Source of the DNA: Kazachstania africana CBS 2517
Lineage: Eukaryota > Ascomycota > Saccharomycetes > Saccharomycetales > Saccharomycetaceae
Length of the DNA: 64,000 nucleotides
Direction: 5' to 3'
NCBI RefSeq assembly: GCF_000304475.1
Contig: NC_018942.1
Location: 1,116,001 to 1,180,000 of the forward strand
In this document: piece after piece, positions 3,164 through 64,000 of the stretch
How the letters are laid out: each line of letters begins with the position of its first letter
Numbering within the stretch: the stretch's first letter is position 1
Translations under genes and position numbers: made by a program
The notes under the pieces: model-generated
Seen by the model: only the letters and a program-made list of their open reading frames with translations
Database searches by the model: none
What the model was told of the DNA's origin: nothing

Positions 3164-5611
3164 CTAGTCAACCTGGCCTCTGTGAAGATCAATACCTGTA
3201 GATGTTGATACGTCATTCTGAGTGGATGCCAGATCATTATCTATTACTTCCTCCACTAGATCTTCATGTATAGTAGAATTAACGTCACTGGCTGATACGT
3301 TATCTTGGTTATGAGAAGCTGCTTCATTTTCTTGCTCCTCATGTTGCATTCTCTCACGTACTCTTATCTGCTCTTGTATAATTTCATCAACTTTGTTTCT
3401 GATGGGACCAGGTAAGAATAGAAAGAAAAACAAAACGAAATTCTTCAAAACTGTAATTATGACGTTATCATGTAATCGGTTTGGTACAATTTTTCTCATT
3501 ACATTACCAAATAAATCATTCCCTTCGATAGAATCAATGCGAAGTTGAATCTTCTCAAAAATTCTTCTCGGTAATGACAATTCATTCAGTGTCAGCCTAC
3601 TCATGTCCCTATACAAAATGTTTAAAAACTCCTTTAACGAATATTGTTGCTCCGTCGTTAGCGTACTTTTCACATCGTATAACCCAACCACATTGCATAA
3701 TAAATCATTTAAAGAATCAATGGGGATTGTTTCGGATTGAATCAATCTGAATATTTCTTTTAAGGAAGAGGCATCTCTAGTGGCGTCTCCACCATATTTT
3801 TCATACAGTTCATTTCTTTTCTCTTGGAGTTGAGGCAGTAAAAATAAATCCATTATATGTGTGTTCTTCTCAATCTTGTTAACGTAAAAATCATTATCTA
3901 ACTGATCAGAATTGGAGTATTCTTTCAATTGAAGCAATATTTTATCTTCCATGTCGTTTAACCTCAAAAAATGTGACCACATTACTCTAATCTCCCTAGT
4001 TACCCATATGGTTCTACATAATAATACAACCAGCAACAATATTCGATATTTCCAACTCAGGAAAGCTCCAAATTCGACCATAATGAAAAAAGTTAGAAAT
4101 GAATTTCTTCCAACCAAATAAACAGTCTTAGCGGCCAATACGATAAATGGGATAATATTTCTAACATACCTAAAAAAACTTCTTTGATCATTTCTTCTTA
4201 TTGTAGATATTTGAGGGATATTTTCTTTCACAATCTTGATATTGAGCTTCTGTTCAATCTCCTGAATTTTTGAGGGACTTAACCTAACGATATTTCCCTC
4301 CATACGATAATCTTGCGTGGACAGTGAGAAGAAGGCATCTGAGGTCACTAACATTGTTGTCACTGGGTCCAAATATTTCTCTTCAATAAATACTTCCCTG
4401 CCATCTACTAAACATTTTCTGTATAGACCCTTTTGTGGCTGAACTATTTTACCTGACTCAGTAACATATTTACTTCTGACGGGTTCTCGTGCTTCATAAG
4501 TAGATCCTTGTTGTTCATTCATAAACCTATCGGCTGTGACATGTATTGGTCTATCAGAGGGATCCACAATCGATATATTTTCATTAGAATGTTGAAAGGG
4601 CTCTGACCAAAACTTATCTAAAGTGATAGAATTATACTGGGCGACTTGCACATGCAATTTTCCTGCATGGAATTCATTAATATAACTTTTTATCGTCGCA
4701 GGATGTCCCGTTAATGTTTTGTTGGGAATCAATTGCCCTCTGTATATTAATTTGACATTATCTGGAGTGACATTTGACGACTGCATGTATATGCAGCAGA
4801 TGAAGTTCTTAACGTCTTCGACAGATGTAGAGGAATCAACTTTTAATTTAGAAATAGACAATTTATCGTTGCAGAAAAGCTCAAGCGTCATCACATCAGA
4901 TGATGGATTAGTAATCTTTTGAGTATGTTCAACTTGAAACATTAAAGCAAAACAGCTTGTTTTTTCTGGTAGTAAGTCAAAATTTAGAAGTTGCAATAAG
5001 GAATAATCCATATAGAAGTCATTTGAATTATCTAAGGGTATTGATTGATCCTGTCCTTTGATTTTAAATCCAATAATACTATCTAAAGAGTGTTGATTTA
5101 CCATTGAACAATAACCTTCATTGTCTGAGGTTAGCTCCAGATCATTGACTAGTTCTAATGCCATCTTTTCAAGTTTTGCCATAGTTATATCCACTCTAAT
5201 ATCAGTAAATTTTCTTTTTTGAATTTTATCACGAGCCAATATATTCACTTCAATTTCCAGGTCTGTTTTCGAAAATTCACTCTCATAATTATAATCTAAA
5301 TCAGAATTTTCTTCTGAAAGGCGTTCCAACTGTTCAAAATCTAAAGGTATGAAAGCAGAAGCTATATGAGACGCTAGTATAGTAATCAGTGTGGAATCAA
5401 GTGGCAACTCCTGTCCATCGTGCTTCAAACAATATTTTGAGACGTGCTGTAATGTAGTATCTCCCTGTGACGATATGATCGAATGGATATATTGCAAAAG
5501 TCTGGATATCTTTGTTTGAGGATGTGCATTCAGGGCAATATTAGTACTAATTAAATTTGCATCTGATGAATGTATCGTAAGCTTTATGGGAGGCTCCGCT
5601 GAACAAAGCAT
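3164..5611 (-). CDS. USA1: Usa1, scaffold of the Hrd1 ER-associated degradation ligase
   Basis: An 815-residue protein (S. cerevisiae Usa1 is 838). In the HRD complex Usa1 bridges Hrd1 to Der1 and promotes Hrd1 oligomerisation in the ER membrane, so that misfolded lumenal and membrane proteins are ubiquitinated and extracted. A ubiquitin-like fold is visible in the first half (about residues 240-325, with LELFCNDKLSISKLKVDSS and a KLIYRGQLI strand typical of ubiquitin-like domains). Two closely spaced hydrophobic segments in the middle (around KTVYLVGRNSFLTFFIMVEF and ILLLVVLLCRTIWV) fit the membrane hairpin, and a further hydrophobic stretch lies near the C-terminus (FVLFFFLFLPG). The tail is acidic and low in complexity. 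Identity rests on this architecture plus position between TSA1 and RCF1 (YML029W). Confidence 0.88.
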   Translation of the reverse strand: MLCSAEPPIKLTIHSSDANLISTNIALNAHPQTKISRLLQYIHSIISSQGDTTLQHVSKYCLKHDGQELPLDSTLITILASHIASAFIPLDFEQLERLSEENSDLDYNYESEFSKTDLEIEVNILARDKIQKRKFTDIRVDITMAKLEKMALELVNDLELTSDNEGYCSMVNQHSLDSIIGFKIKGQDQSIPLDNSNDFYMDYSLLQLLNFDLLPEKTSCFALMFQVEHTQKITNPSSDVMTLELFCNDKLSISKLKVDSSTSVEDVKNFICCIYMQSSNVTPDNVKLIYRGQLIPNKTLTGHPATIKSYINEFHAGKLHVQVAQYNSITLDKFWSEPFQHSNENISIVDPSDRPIHVTADRFMNEQQGSTYEAREPVRSKYVTESGKIVQPQKGLYRKCLVDGREVFIEEKYLDPVTTMLVTSDAFFSLSTQDYRMEGNIVRLSPSKIQEIEQKLNIKIVKENIPQISTIRRNDQRSFFRYVRNIIPFIVLAAKTVYLVGRNSFLTFFIMVEFGAFLSWKYRILLLVVLLCRTIWVTREIRVMWSHFLRLNDMEDKILLQLKEYSNSDQLDNDFYVNKIEKNTHIMDLFLLPQLQEKRNELYEKYGGDATRDASSLKEIFRLIQSETIPIDSLNDLLCNVVGLYDVKSTLTTEQQYSLKEFLNILYRDMSRLTLNELSLPRRIFEKIQLRIDSIEGNDLFGNVMRKIVPNRLHDNVIITVLKNFVLFFFLFLPGPIRNKVDEIIQEQIRVRERMQHEEQENEAASHNQDNVSASDVNSTIHEDLVEEVIDNDLASTQNDVSTSTGIDLHRGQVD

Positions 5612-6025
5612 CTTTTCTTAAAAGCGTTTCACCTCACCCACTGATGCTTAAGGCGACTCTACGAATCAAATCTTCTTCTCATAACTTTGATGTAACTTGA
5701 ACGTCCATACTCCGCCAAAGAACAGTCAATAGTTTTCCCTTAGTGAAGCGCGTGTGCATAGCTTCGCATAGCTTCGCATAATAGAAACGTACTCAGAATA
5801 AAGCCAAACGTTAGAAATGACGACTGTCGAACTAGTGTCAATTTGGCTCATGAAGATGACAGAGATGGCCCAATGCACCAGTCAGGCGGTTGGGACATAC
5901 TTTGCTATATAGTTCATCTTGCAAGATATGGTATGTTTTACTTCGGTGCGTCAACGCCGCTAATTTGGTTTTGGAATAGATAAAAGAGGAAGAATATAAG
6001 AATCTTTATATACATTTTGATTGAG
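5612..6025. other. Intergenic: USA1 promoter and RCF1 3' flank
   Basis: No gene supported. A short tandem duplication of CATAGCTTCG is visible at about 5757-5780; otherwise nothing notable. Confidence 0.6.
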
Positions 6026-34015: not shown

Positions 34016-34372
34016 GTTTTTATGTGCACTCGGGAATATTTGCTGATAGATATATAGTTATACATATTACATTAGAACTGATGACTCCTGAAATCAAAAA
34101 TTTTGTATATGTGTGTCACAGTATTAATAAGATTGAACAAGTATGGGTTTTTCGTTTCTTTTTAGCCCTATGTTGCTAGTTCTTGTACTCTACATTCATT
34201 CATAAAGCTTTTATCGAATGATTGTTATATCAAAATGGAGAAGGTTATAATATTTTAAAAATATAAACATTTTGGTAAGACTTTCCTTCATTAACCAAAG
34301 AAGAGATAGATCAGACGTGACAAACAAAACATAAAAAAAAATATCTGCCTTCTGAAAAGTGAAAAAATATGA
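34016..34372. other. Intergenic between SPO13 and tRNA-Ser
   Basis: 357 bp with no gene seen. A run of six A at 34362-34367 is the Pol III terminator of the reverse-strand tRNA. Confidence 0.6.
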
Positions 34373-34454
34373 CGACAACTGCAGGACTCGAACCTGCGCG
34401 GGCAGAGCCCAAAAGATTTCTAATCTTTCGCCTTAACCACTCGGCCAAGTTGCC
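34373..34454 (-). tRNA. tRNA-Ser (anticodon AGA)
   Basis: 82-nt reverse-strand tRNA with the long variable arm of serine tRNAs. The 5' end is GGCAACTTGGCCGAGTGG with the A box; the anticodon loop TTAGAAA puts AGA at 34421-34419; the T arm holds GGTTCGAGTCC. The sequence is nearly the same as S. cerevisiae tRNA-Ser(AGA), which decodes UCU and UCC after A34-to-I editing. No intron. A T6 terminator follows the 3' end. A Ty3-like LTR begins 17 bp upstream of the mature 5' end, the usual Ty3 target distance. Confidence 0.98.
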
Positions 34455-34797
34455 ATATTATTTACAATCTTTTTTGTATCATAGACTGGGGAATACATCA
34501 TTAGGCTTTGAGTTCCTGTGACAACTTTCTTAGAACCAAAATCTAGACACCCGCTGTTCAATTTATATTTTATTAACTTATATATTTCACATTATTGAAT
34601 TTGGTTGAATATTAGTGAAAACTTTTCATAGACGCAACTTTTGTCATCTTGAAGAATTCCACACTAGAAAAAGGAATTCGTCATATTTATTTGTTTTCCT
34701 TTCCTCTTCTCTTCTTTTTCTTTTTTTTTTAAATTCAATTTATATCATGTGGCGCGTGGGCCGGTCCGTCGACCCAACCTGACTCTGCGAGCACGGC
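34455..34797. other. Spacer with LTR fragment and pyrimidine tract
   Basis: Between the tRNA and the toxin-like stop codon. It holds the LTR fragment, then a T/C tract at 34691-34730 (purine-rich on the toxin coding strand), then about 65 bp of GC-rich sequence continuing the composition of the toxin-like gene. Confidence 0.6.
34472..34696 (+). repeat. Ty3-like LTR fragment upstream of tRNA-Ser
   Basis: About 225 bp that align, in inverted orientation, with the LTR at 35720-36075 over its first 210 bp. The best-kept stretch runs from ACACCCGCTG through TTTCACATTATTGAATT to GAAGAATTCCACACTA. The element starts TTTTGTATCATAGACTGGG where the other copy has TGTTGTAACATAAACTGGG. Its first base is 17 bp from the tRNA-Ser 5' end. 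The TATA box is mutated (TAGAAAAAGG) and the 3' third is missing, so this is a decayed relic. Ty3 origin is inferred from the TGTTGTA terminus, length and target position; no protein-coding Ty sequence is present. Confidence 0.72.
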
Positions 34798-35673
34798 TTA
34801 GATCGCAGGACACTGGATGTCGCCCAAGCTGAAGTGACATGGTTCTGAGACCTCCACCCTCATCACTTTAACATGTGATCGCCAGGTGCCGCTGTGCGTT
34901 AGGGTGGTACACCATCCGGCTGACTTAAGTTTCTCGCCCTCTTCTATCATATCTCCGATAATAATTTCGATCTCCTCAGTTGTAAGTGTTGTATCACACT
35001 TCGACCCAGCAGTATATGGGTATATACCTATGGTATACCTGTACGATTTGTTCCCACTAGTGTACTTCAATGTCTCGACCCGGCCATAGCAGGCGGTCGC
35101 ACTCGAGCTGCTTTTGGTTATGGAAGCTATGTTCGCTGCCATGGACAAGACGTCTAGGCCCATGTGGTACAGGCTACTGATCCCTTCACCTATGTATTTA
35201 GCTTTAAATTTCCTATCTGACGCTAGCATGGCCTGGTAAGCAGTCGAGTCCTTAATATATCCTATAAATGTCGAACACCATGTGGTTCTTTTCACCAAAG
35301 TCGTAGTCTGGTTGCCATAGAAGTCGTTGACCAAGGCCTGCGTGATACTCATCACCAGGTCAACCACGTCATGTTCATCAGACCCGCGCTTGTAGAGACC
35401 GTTTGCGATTATGTCGCTGGCGTACATCTGGATAGCTGTGTGATTAAGTACGATCTCAGTAGAGAGCAATGTCGTATTAGGGTGCACGCCCTTTTCCTCT
35501 AGAGCATCTATGACCCTAGGAGGTGTTCCGTAATACAAGGTATATGAGTCTAATGTTGCATTGTACCCGCTAGAAGCGCTGGTGTCATTGCGGGGGTAAA
35601 TAAGGTGCCAGTCTTCTTCGGCATTAGCACAAGCTATGAGGAATATCAACGAAAGAATAGTGGGCAGTCTCAT
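34798..35673 (-). CDS. Secreted killer-toxin-like precursor
   Basis: 291 residues from the ATG at 35673. The frame stays open to a TTG at 35772, but that extension is LTR sequence, whereas the ATG begins a clean signal peptide (MRLPTILSLIFLIACANA, cleavage near 18). Two Lys-Arg sites at residues 95-96 and 128-129 fit Kex2 processing into a pro-region and a C-terminal chain. The pro-part has several N-glycosylation sequons (N29, N38, N66, N77, N121). The last chain has six cysteines (133, 195, 226, 255, 279, 288), a GSKCDTT motif and a HSGTW motif seen in small secreted fungal killer-like proteins. It resembles chromosomal or virus-encoded yeast killer preprotoxins in layout; I cannot name the subfamily. 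It is visibly GC-richer than its neighbours, suggesting acquisition. Activity and immunity are unknown. Confidence 0.7.
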   Translation of the reverse strand: MRLPTILSLIFLIACANAEEDWHLIYPRNDTSASSGYNATLDSYTLYYGTPPRVIDALEEKGVHPNTTLLSTEIVLNHTAIQMYASDIIANGLYKRGSDEHDVVDLVMSITQALVNDFYGNQTTTLVKRTTWCSTFIGYIKDSTAYQAMLASDRKFKAKYIGEGISSLYHMGLDVLSMAANIASITKSSSSATACYGRVETLKYTSGNKSYRYTIGIYPYTAGSKCDTTLTTEEIEIIIGDMIEEGEKLKSAGWCTTLTHSGTWRSHVKVMRVEVSEPCHFSLGDIQCPAI

Positions 35674-35680
35674 GGTTATC

Positions 35681-35718
35681 CTTATTTTTCCTTCTCTTTC
35701 TTTTCTTTTCTTTTTTTT
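35681..35718. repeat. Purine-rich tract (coding strand) before the toxin-like gene
   Basis: T/C-rich on the given strand, so A/G-rich on the toxin-like coding strand, lying between the LTR and the ATG. A similar tract of about 40 bp lies past the stop codon at 34691-34730 in the same orientation, so the gene is bracketed by two like-oriented purine tracts. Confidence 0.6.
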
Positions 35719-35719
35719 A

Positions 35720-36075
35720 TGACACACTGCTTGTGTATATTCTAATTCAGGGACAGAGAGCCTGGAAATCAATCTAATCGTATAACTATAGCTAAAATTG
35801 TATCGAAAAGCTGGTCTTTTTAATATATAAAATTATAAAGTATAATAAAAGATTAAGAACAATTATGACGAAGAATTCCTTTTTATAGTGTGGAATTCTT
35901 CAAGATGACAAAAGTTGCGTCTCTGAAAAGGTTTCACTAATATTCAACCAAATTCAATAATGTGAAATATATAAGTTAATAAATTGAACAGCGGGTGTCT
36001 GGGTCTTGATTCTGGAAAAGCAGTCAACACGAATTTAGAGCTTAATGTTGTAGTTTCCCAGTTTATGTTACAACA
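35720..36075 (-). repeat. Ty3-like solo LTR upstream of the toxin-like gene
   Basis: About 356 bp read on the reverse strand from TGTTGTAACATAAACTGGG at 36075 to GTGTGTCA at 35720. It is homologous, inverted, to 34472-34696 and, in the same orientation, to 63783-64000. TG...CA ends, a length near the 340-bp Ty3 sigma element, and a TATA box in the middle support an LTR. No primer-binding site or gag/pol sequence follows, so it is solo. The 3' boundary is approximate. It lies immediately upstream of, and points into, the toxin-like gene. Confidence 0.7.
35879..35889 (-). promoter_or_regulatory. LTR TATA box driving toward the toxin-like gene
   Basis: CTATAAAAAGG on the reverse strand, about 206 bp upstream of the ATG at 35673. 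The same word, CTATAAAAGG, is kept in the LTR copy at 63927-63936 and mutated in the fragment beside the tRNA. Confidence 0.55.
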
Positions 36076-62802: not shown

Positions 62803-63782
62803 TAAGTAAATATCTTGTTTTTATTTATAAAATAAAGGACTTTGTAAAATGTAAATGTCAATACCTATTCAGAAATCAATAAACCGTTATCGATTAAGGA
62901 TTTGCAATAGTATGTTTCTTTTACAAACTAGCATATAGATAAAATGGAATCGAAATATCAGTGGGAACTCGGAATAAAGCCAGCTATTTATATGTTTTAA
63001 AAAAGAGCCTTCTAGGTAGTCTCCTCTTCATTAGTATATGAACTTCAGTGATAGTGACCTCAGAAGTTCGTCTATGATTTATTAACTTTTTCCACCGTTC
63101 TAATCCCTTACTGCGCGAAACTCAGCTCTCGAAAAATTGTACCTCAATTGAGCGTCTACAGTTGGCCACACTAGAATATGTACCTTCTAATTCGGAGCTA
63201 CATCGAACTGTTTTTGAAGACGTCATATCTACTTGTAAGATTGTTTTTCAAAGCGGGGTGGTCCTGATAGCGCCGTATAATTTTAGAGTTACTCCGATTA
63301 TCACGATGACGGGATATATCCAAAAATGGCAATTTATATTCAATTCTAATGAGGTTCTTGGTGCAGTGCGTACATAGAAGTGCTATTTGAGGCAACTTTT
63401 CTCTCAGCTTGAAAATGCAGTACAGAACAAACTTTGAAATGTGATTAGATGTATGGAAACATTAAGATTAAATGGCAATCCAGATCACAGTTTCATGATT
63501 CTACCAAAACATTGGAATGTGTTAGAAATGTCAGTGTAAGGCTATTTCCAGAACTTATTCACTGTTCAGCAACACATATCATGCATACTTTCCTATTGTA
63601 TCTTCCTCACTGTAAGCCTCGTGTAGTCCGCATAGAGCGTCTTAGAGTGAGGTCATATTTATATGCGCATTAGTATCGAGAGAAAATATTAAAAAAAGTT
63701 GTAATTCCCCAAGTATATACTGTAAGAAAATTAGTGCAAGTTCAATCCAGTAACCAGACCGATGATAACAGAGGGAATATAG
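62803..63782. other. Promoter of the broken secreted-protein gene and LTR flank
   Basis: 980 bp without a supported gene. Short open frames are present on both strands but none has a signature. The LTR remnant begins at its right end. Confidence 0.5.
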
Positions 63783-64000
63783 CACGGCTTCTGCATATTC
63801 TAATTCAAGGAATAGGAGCAGTGGAAACATATCTGATCGTAGAACTGTAGCTAAAAGCGTCCTGTCTTTTTTCCAAATAGAATTATAAAGTAAATAAAAT
63901 TAAGAAACAAATGTGAGGAAGATTTCCCTTTTATAGTGTGGAAGTCCTCAGTATGACAAAAATTTGACCGATAGTTCTCTTGTCCTCTCTTCAGGTATTG
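63783..64000 (-). repeat. Third copy of the Ty3-like LTR (cut by the window edge)
   Basis: From about 63783 to the window end the sequence matches 35720-35930 in the same orientation: TGCATATTCTAATTCAAGG, CTGTAGCTAAAAG, AATTATAAAGTA and CCTTTTATAGTGTGGAA are shared with few gaps. The conserved TATA word lies at 63927-63936. The LTR 5' end should lie about 110-130 bp beyond the window. No adjacent toxin-like gene is seen on its downstream side. Confidence 0.68.

Follow-up and report, generated by a model that had tools for sequence, protein, structure and literature searches.

Probable retrotransposon-made capture of a killer-type gene beside a tRNA gene in Kazachstania africana

How does a killer-type gene come to lie between two inverted retrotransposon ends next to a tRNA gene? 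This question is raised by a locus of Kazachstania africana CBS 2517, whose genome comprises 11.13 Mb in 12 contigs (C1 to C12). Within a stretch of 64,000 nucleotides of contig 3 (C3:1116001-1180000; hereafter the window), a tRNA-Ser gene is followed by part of a Ty3-like long terminal repeat (LTR), referred to as LTR-A, by an A-rich tract, by an open reading frame (ORF) for a secreted precursor, and by a further LTR-A copy inverted relative to the first. The architecture of this island, its recurrence elsewhere in the genome, the spacing to tRNA genes and the target duplications around two sister cassettes were obtained directly; judged from these sequence features, the island is probably a retrotransposon-made capture of a killer-type gene.

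Inverted-LTR cassettes and their insertion sites

The order of LTR, secreted ORF, A-rich tract and inverted LTR was found at five loci, namely the window, C1:1653 kb, C5:509 kb, C3:1049 kb and C8:145 kb, and a tRNA gene adjoins four of the five, one of them by eye only. At C1:1653 kb, KAFR_0A08240 lies between inverted LTR-A copies with a tRNA-Gly gene adjacent, and at C3:1049 kb an intact ORF of 278 amino acids (aa), which belongs to a second protein family, stands near a tRNA-Val gene. Broken ORFs of the same second family are enclosed at C5:508.7-510.3 kb, where no tRNA turned up in the sequence retrieved, and at C8:145 kb, where ARAGORN calls no tRNA and a tRNA-Pro-like sequence was seen, by eye only, to start 16 nt from the LTR end. 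At C2:1401.5-1403.5 kb lies a variant in which the LTRs are direct repeats; it has a polypurine tract and contains an intact ORF of 329 aa from a third family. The second family occupies 12 places in the genome. No relation between the three protein families could be detected (best cross-family BLASTP E value of 2.3 among the 11 proteins compared), and a profile comparison of families 1 and 2 returned a probability of 0.2%. The gene-side LTR ends of the cassettes are cut at internal positions, with 5' junctions at varied LTR positions. The inverted LTR pair at C5:509 kb (L031:596-1449) is 98.4% identical over 253 bp.

A full LTR-A copy measures 400 bp, and at least 41 genome matches were listed with the right-hand window copy as query (itself included) and at least 35 with the other LTR part. 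Because of these matches and of full 400-bp copies with 5-bp target duplications, the similarity of the window LTR pair is not a chance match. The sense of LTR-A was assigned from two loci: at C2:1402 kb a 15-nt purine run stands immediately 5' of a full LTR-A, the position expected of a polypurine tract, and on C6 a copy with a Ty3-type reverse transcriptase (RT; RVT_1) is followed by LTR-A in the sense set by that tract. The opposite sense, in which the gene-side part would be R-U5, was overturned by the same two loci. A 5' LTR of the C6 copy was not found (score of 39.0 in the reverse-complement sense, with a shuffled maximum of 44.5). In the assigned sense, the LTR upstream of each cassette ORF points the same way as the gene. 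Judged by LTR end positions, the central TATA-bearing part is retained in five of the six cassettes, C1 being the exception; the exact TATATA is kept in the window and at C5, and the other three have TATA-like variants.

Target sites were scored for solo LTR-A copies, leaving aside L030, L043 and L050, whose ends are incomplete, and L037. Among 14 scored copies, the 5-bp target duplication matched at 5/5 letters in 10, at 4/5 in three and at 3/5 in one. In 30 loci there are 22 pairs of an LTR and a tRNA gene within 60 nt of each other, and for 20 of these the distance to the tRNA 5' end is 14-17 nt. The four composites measured among these pairs are 15-17 nt from the tRNA, a spacing like that of solo copies. 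Ty3 itself integrates at the RNA polymerase III (pol III) start, ~10 bp upstream of the mature tRNA (PMC5911963; here and below, papers are cited from the accessible part of their text).

If a cassette was inserted as a unit, its outer flanks should carry the duplication. At C2, both outer flanks read GGTTT (5/5), whereas the first LTR alone scores 2/5; at C8, both read AAATT (5/5) with the LTR end aligned over one substituted terminal base. The remaining sister composites score 4/5 (C1), 3/5 (C5, with an uncertain end) and 2/5 (C3:1049 kb). All six composites together, the window included, match at 22 of 30 letters (P ~1e-5 against mismatched pairs from 20 loci). When only the six composites are permuted among themselves, 24 of 720 permutations do as well, because AAATT recurs. 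An LTR at C5:618 kb that had seemed to lack its own target duplication was rejected as a composite, since moving the ends by six nucleotides places CTCCG on either side (by eye). At L034 (C1:938 kb) and L027 (C4:148 kb), LTR-A copies adjoin back to back, nearly without intervening sequence; these are possibly empty relatives of the cassettes.

The recurring LTR-flanked architecture with three protein families, the tRNA spacing and the composite target duplications lead us to a capture as hybrid complementary DNA (cDNA), and reverse transcription, RNA source, promoter use and toxin function are what we infer beyond them. An RNA for a preprotoxin related to CSS2 and Klus would have been reverse transcribed inside a Ty3-like particle while the enzyme switched between retrotransposon and foreign templates. 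One switch or priming point may be marked by the A-rich tract that follows the ORF, the other by the leader side. Integrase would then have brought the hybrid cDNA, flanked by LTR ends, to the pol III start beside a tRNA, where the upstream LTR, which is in gene sense and has a TATA-like stretch, may act as promoter of the captured gene. The encoded precursor would be secreted and processed by Kex2, its last, cysteine-rich domain being the putative active part.

The encoded protein and the source of its RNA

The window protein has Lys-Arg pairs at residues 95-96 and 128-129, and six cysteines (Cys 133, 195, 226, 255, 279 and 288) follow the second pair, in the C-terminal half as in the Klus and KHR toxins. 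A member of that toxin group would also be expected to have an alpha/beta sandwich fold near DUF26, Gnk-2 and SMKT. Residues 168-276 match PF20521 (DUF6736, CSS2 C-terminal domain) with 37.7 bits, above the Pfam cut-off of 27 bits. The GC content at third codon positions (GC3) is foreign, at 0.55 compared with 0.29-0.35 in five neighbouring genes. A search of ~5.8 billion proteins (E<=10) returned only the protein itself and KAFR_0A08240, a K. africana paralogue with 49% identity, and a profile built from 11 paralogues added one further K. africana protein; such searches depend on shared 5-residue words, and distant orthologues may escape them. A search from another PF20521 branch also found one metagenome protein and one Fusarium tricinctum protein, so the family is not restricted to K. 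africana. At 8% random substitution, the probability that the window ORF stays open under neutral decay is 0.13; therefore its openness alone is weak evidence of constraint.

PF20521 has 15 matches in the genome, 13 of them above the cut-off (one only with its neighbours in frame), and several sit near contig ends. Copies linked to an LTR have a GC content of 44.7-49.8%, compared with 36.8-41.4% for copies near contig ends. The ORF of L009 is identical to KAFR_0F00115. Two identical, divergent PF20521 proteins are encoded in an inverted duplication with arms of >700 bp (L013:3864-5990), and one PF20521 gene is accompanied upstream and downstream by a perfect 142-bp repeat (L021:4048-4189 and 5497-5638); this block has five genome matches, three of them upstream of PF20521 genes.

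The captured RNA may have been a double-stranded RNA (dsRNA) satellite or a chromosomal mRNA; there is evidence on both sides. Killer satellite (M) genomes begin with GAAAAA and contain poly(A) in their central part (PMC5618225). A GAAAAA at most 25 nt from the ATG was found in four of the five cassettes scored, compared with three of 44 ordinary ORFs (Fisher 8e-4); C8:145 kb was left out of this scoring as its ORF is broken. An A-rich tract follows the ORF in five cassettes (window, C1, C5, C3:1049 kb and C8), and in the inverted-LTR cassettes the LTR comes after it, where the 3' non-coding half of a satellite, with its replication signals, would lie. The tract is purine-only in the window. 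At C1 (201 nt) and C5 (96 nt) it is at least 95% A+T with A and T mixed and an A fraction of 0.64. The 14-mer GAAAAATAAGGATA was considered as a shared satellite 5' end; in the whole 11.13 Mb it has exactly two occurrences, one at the window gene and the other at a C12 gene of family 2, and it was dropped on finding that the C12 leader aligns with LTR-C.

LTR-C is a second LTR family with 19 genome matches, its sense being read from TATAAATA at position 204. It lies downstream of five genes, those at C7:450, C7:452, C7:621 and C2:1301 kb (PF20521) and at C3:1213 kb (family 2). At all five it starts at reference positions 260-272, after or in an A-run, while the three ordinary copies compared start at position 1; we infer that the junction of gene and LTR-C fits the start of the LTR-C element RNA. 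Two family-2 ORFs (L060:736-1629 and L061:443-1297) start in or beside LTR-C sequence. In L061 the similarity to LTR-C appears to extend into the signal-peptide codons, and the start codon in L060 resembles, by eye, an ATG within LTR-C.

Killer-like places number 30 in the genome (15 in family 1, 12 in family 2 and 3 in family 3, whose four matches were counted as three places), and 21 of them are >25 kb from contig ends. Within 1 kb of LTR-A or LTR-C lie 15 of these 21 internal places (random mean 0.31, maximum 5 in 2000 draws), compared with one of the nine at <=25 kb from contig ends. With LTR-A only, the count is 10 of 21, three being the index loci (window, C5 and C2).

These data also bear on the possibility that the source was not a dsRNA killer satellite but the ordinary mRNA of a resident paralogue, so that a chromosomal CSS2-type gene was retroposed. 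This could well have happened, though we do not consider it probable. The 15 PF20521 matches, several near contig ends, would offer such paralogues, and the A-runs before LTR-C in five genes resemble poly(A) tails; ordinary mRNA tails would give the same look at these junctions, which counts against a satellite origin. However, the tracts at C1 and C5 are mixed A and T rather than pure A, and the LTR-linked PF20521 copies are higher in GC than the copies near contig ends.

Whether the captured gene encodes a toxin is a separate matter. CSS2 is a homologue of the killer toxin Klus (PMC13211469; PMC5618225), and the putative link of the window ORF to Klus rests on the names given to its relatives and on the accessible text of PMC5618225. 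The gene might instead encode a secreted CSS2-like protein with another role. In keeping with this, Pfam lists PF20521 as a family of unknown function, CSS2 is termed a protein of unknown function (PMC13211469), and the window ORF gave no sequence match to solved killer toxins. As CSS2 is without known function, homology to a non-toxin secreted family only, a case foreseen in an earlier sequence-only reading of this DNA, may still apply; with the precursor layout shared with Klus, KHR and CSS2, we nevertheless consider a non-toxin role rather unlikely.

Weighing capture as a unit at the window

The coordinates of the window features are collected in Table 1. The tRNA-Ser named in the sequence-only reading is called by ARAGORN and by Rfam (34373-34454, 58.8 bits), and the outer end of the downstream LTR-A lies 16 nt from its 5' end; the gene-side end of this LTR is blurred by A/T-rich sequence. 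The LTR strands given there, plus and then minus, are correct under the sense derived from the polypurine tract and the RT-bearing copy, and the longer LTR on the minus strand proved nearly full length. The two copies, said to align over about 200 bp, have 84% identity over 227 alignment columns (165 nt ungapped at 83%). The proposed minus-strand secreted precursor with two Lys-Arg sites was likewise recovered as an intact ORF, the hydrophobic N-terminus being judged by eye. An older LTR-A fragment near the right end of the window (~63732-63976) has 78% identity to reference positions 1-242.

Table 1. Features of the killer-type island, with positions counted from the first letter of the window
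Feature	Position	Strand	Basis and remarks
tRNA-Ser(AGA)	34371..34455	-	ARAGORN; 5' end toward cassette
LTR-A part copy, downstream of gene, antisense to gene	34472..34695 (end approximate)	+	sequence alignment
A-rich, purine-only tract between 3' untranslated region and LTR	34694..34730	- (gene strand)	sequence
ORF, 291 aa, intact, secreted precursor, PF20521	34798..35673	-	ORF translation and Pfam
17-nt leader directly 5' of ATG, starts GAAAAA	35674..35690	-	sequence
Purine-rich tract, leader to LTR	35691..35717	- (gene strand)	sequence
LTR-A copy upstream of gene, in gene sense	35718..36075	-	~355 of 400 nt; outer end intact

Several observations weigh against the proposed capture. The composite target duplication of the window is only 3/5, and the window alone would not prove integration as a unit. 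The terminal branch lengths of its LTRs are 0.030 upstream and 0.077 downstream, with nearest-relative identities of 96% and 90%; the LTRs thus look unequally old, which argues against a single insertion event. The LTRs at C3:1049 kb differ even more than the window pair (90% vs 72% identity to the reference). One event per cassette needs gene conversion or different source copies, either of which could have played a part. A complete Ty3-like element with LTR-A could not be established, and there is no A-rich tract at C2. The leader evidence is weakened by the GAAAAA that LTR-C itself has at its presumed RNA start, and the proximity of killer-like places to LTRs is inflated, as such flanks led to the discovery of family 2, of family 3 and of the LTR-C query.

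The seemingly unequal age of the window LTRs, together with the fixed spacing at which tRNA genes draw LTR-A, would also suit a resident gene beside which two Ty3-like elements inserted later because of the tRNA gene. Yet the gene-side LTR ends are internal cuts and not full ends with target duplications of their own, the same order is repeated with unrelated proteins, and composite target duplications surround the cassettes at C2 and C8, all of which makes such a history improbable. It is similarly doubtful that end joining, with no integrase involved, filled an LTR-rich break site with cDNA or DNA. Breaks and rearrangements can trap retrotransposon cDNA and retrosequences (PMC7175516), and the 5' junctions do lie at varied LTR positions, but the outer ends are LTR termini at the integrase position beside tRNAs and two target duplications match at 5/5.

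Capture by a retrotransposon is thus the reading we prefer. The sequence-only reading had described the island as acquired, killer-type and enclosed by inverted Ty3-like LTRs next to a tRNA gene, and this part agrees with the data, supported by the PF20521 match, the foreign GC3, the lack of a close relative outside this genome in the protein search and the sister cassettes with target duplications. Over the rearrangement hot spot that it invoked, the data favour a retrotransposon-made hybrid cDNA.

Known systems and meaning

The closest parallel is KTA2, a K62-like gene of S. cerevisiae Y55, which is flanked by LTRs, lies 1,459 bp from a tRNA gene and was suggested to derive from retrotransposition (PMC12691639). 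In contrast to the K. africana cassettes, it is a single locus with another toxin family, and the accessible text gives no junctions, inverted order or target duplications. A study of K1-like genes that included K. africana reported GAAAAA close to the start codon and, in two Naumovozyma species, insertions next to tRNA genes, and it proposed retrotransposon capture (PMC7888664). Those genes differ from the cassettes in being mostly subtelomeric, and the term LTR is absent from the main text of that paper.

Klus, KHR and CSS2 resemble the window ORF in being precursors with Kex2 sites and with cysteines mostly in the C-terminal half (PMC13211469; PMC5618225). By description rather than alignment, Klus differs in that it is encoded on dsRNA and its domains end at 242, whereas the window gene is chromosomal and encodes 291 aa. 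Ksino-like proteins form a Klus-related family with K. africana members, whose genes are unspecified in the accessible text (PMC12875307). Ty1 retrosequences are likewise cellular RNA copied into the genome by a retrotransposon reverse transcriptase (PMC7175516), while in the cassettes the LTR is mainly Ty3-like, the placement resembles that by integrase, and the arrangement recurs with killer-type genes. A literature search covering mainly freely accessible text brought up no account of killer cassettes with inverted LTRs in K. africana.

The way in which killer toxins move between dsRNA satellites and chromosomes is not settled, and earlier proposals of retrotransposon capture argue, in their accessible text, mainly from location. 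In K. africana the junctions, the target duplications and the recurrence in three protein families together make a concrete, testable footprint. An upstream LTR in gene sense would be a possible expression route for a promoterless RNA gene after capture. We tentatively suggest a route by which RNA repeatedly reaches the chromosomes of K. africana: killer-type RNAs, probably dsRNA satellites, may be copied into hybrid cDNAs by a Ty3-like element and by a second LTR element, and integrase may place these cDNAs next to tRNA genes, where they would gain a retrotransposon promoter. If true, such a route would explain the repeated conversion of unrelated killer families to chromosomal genes.
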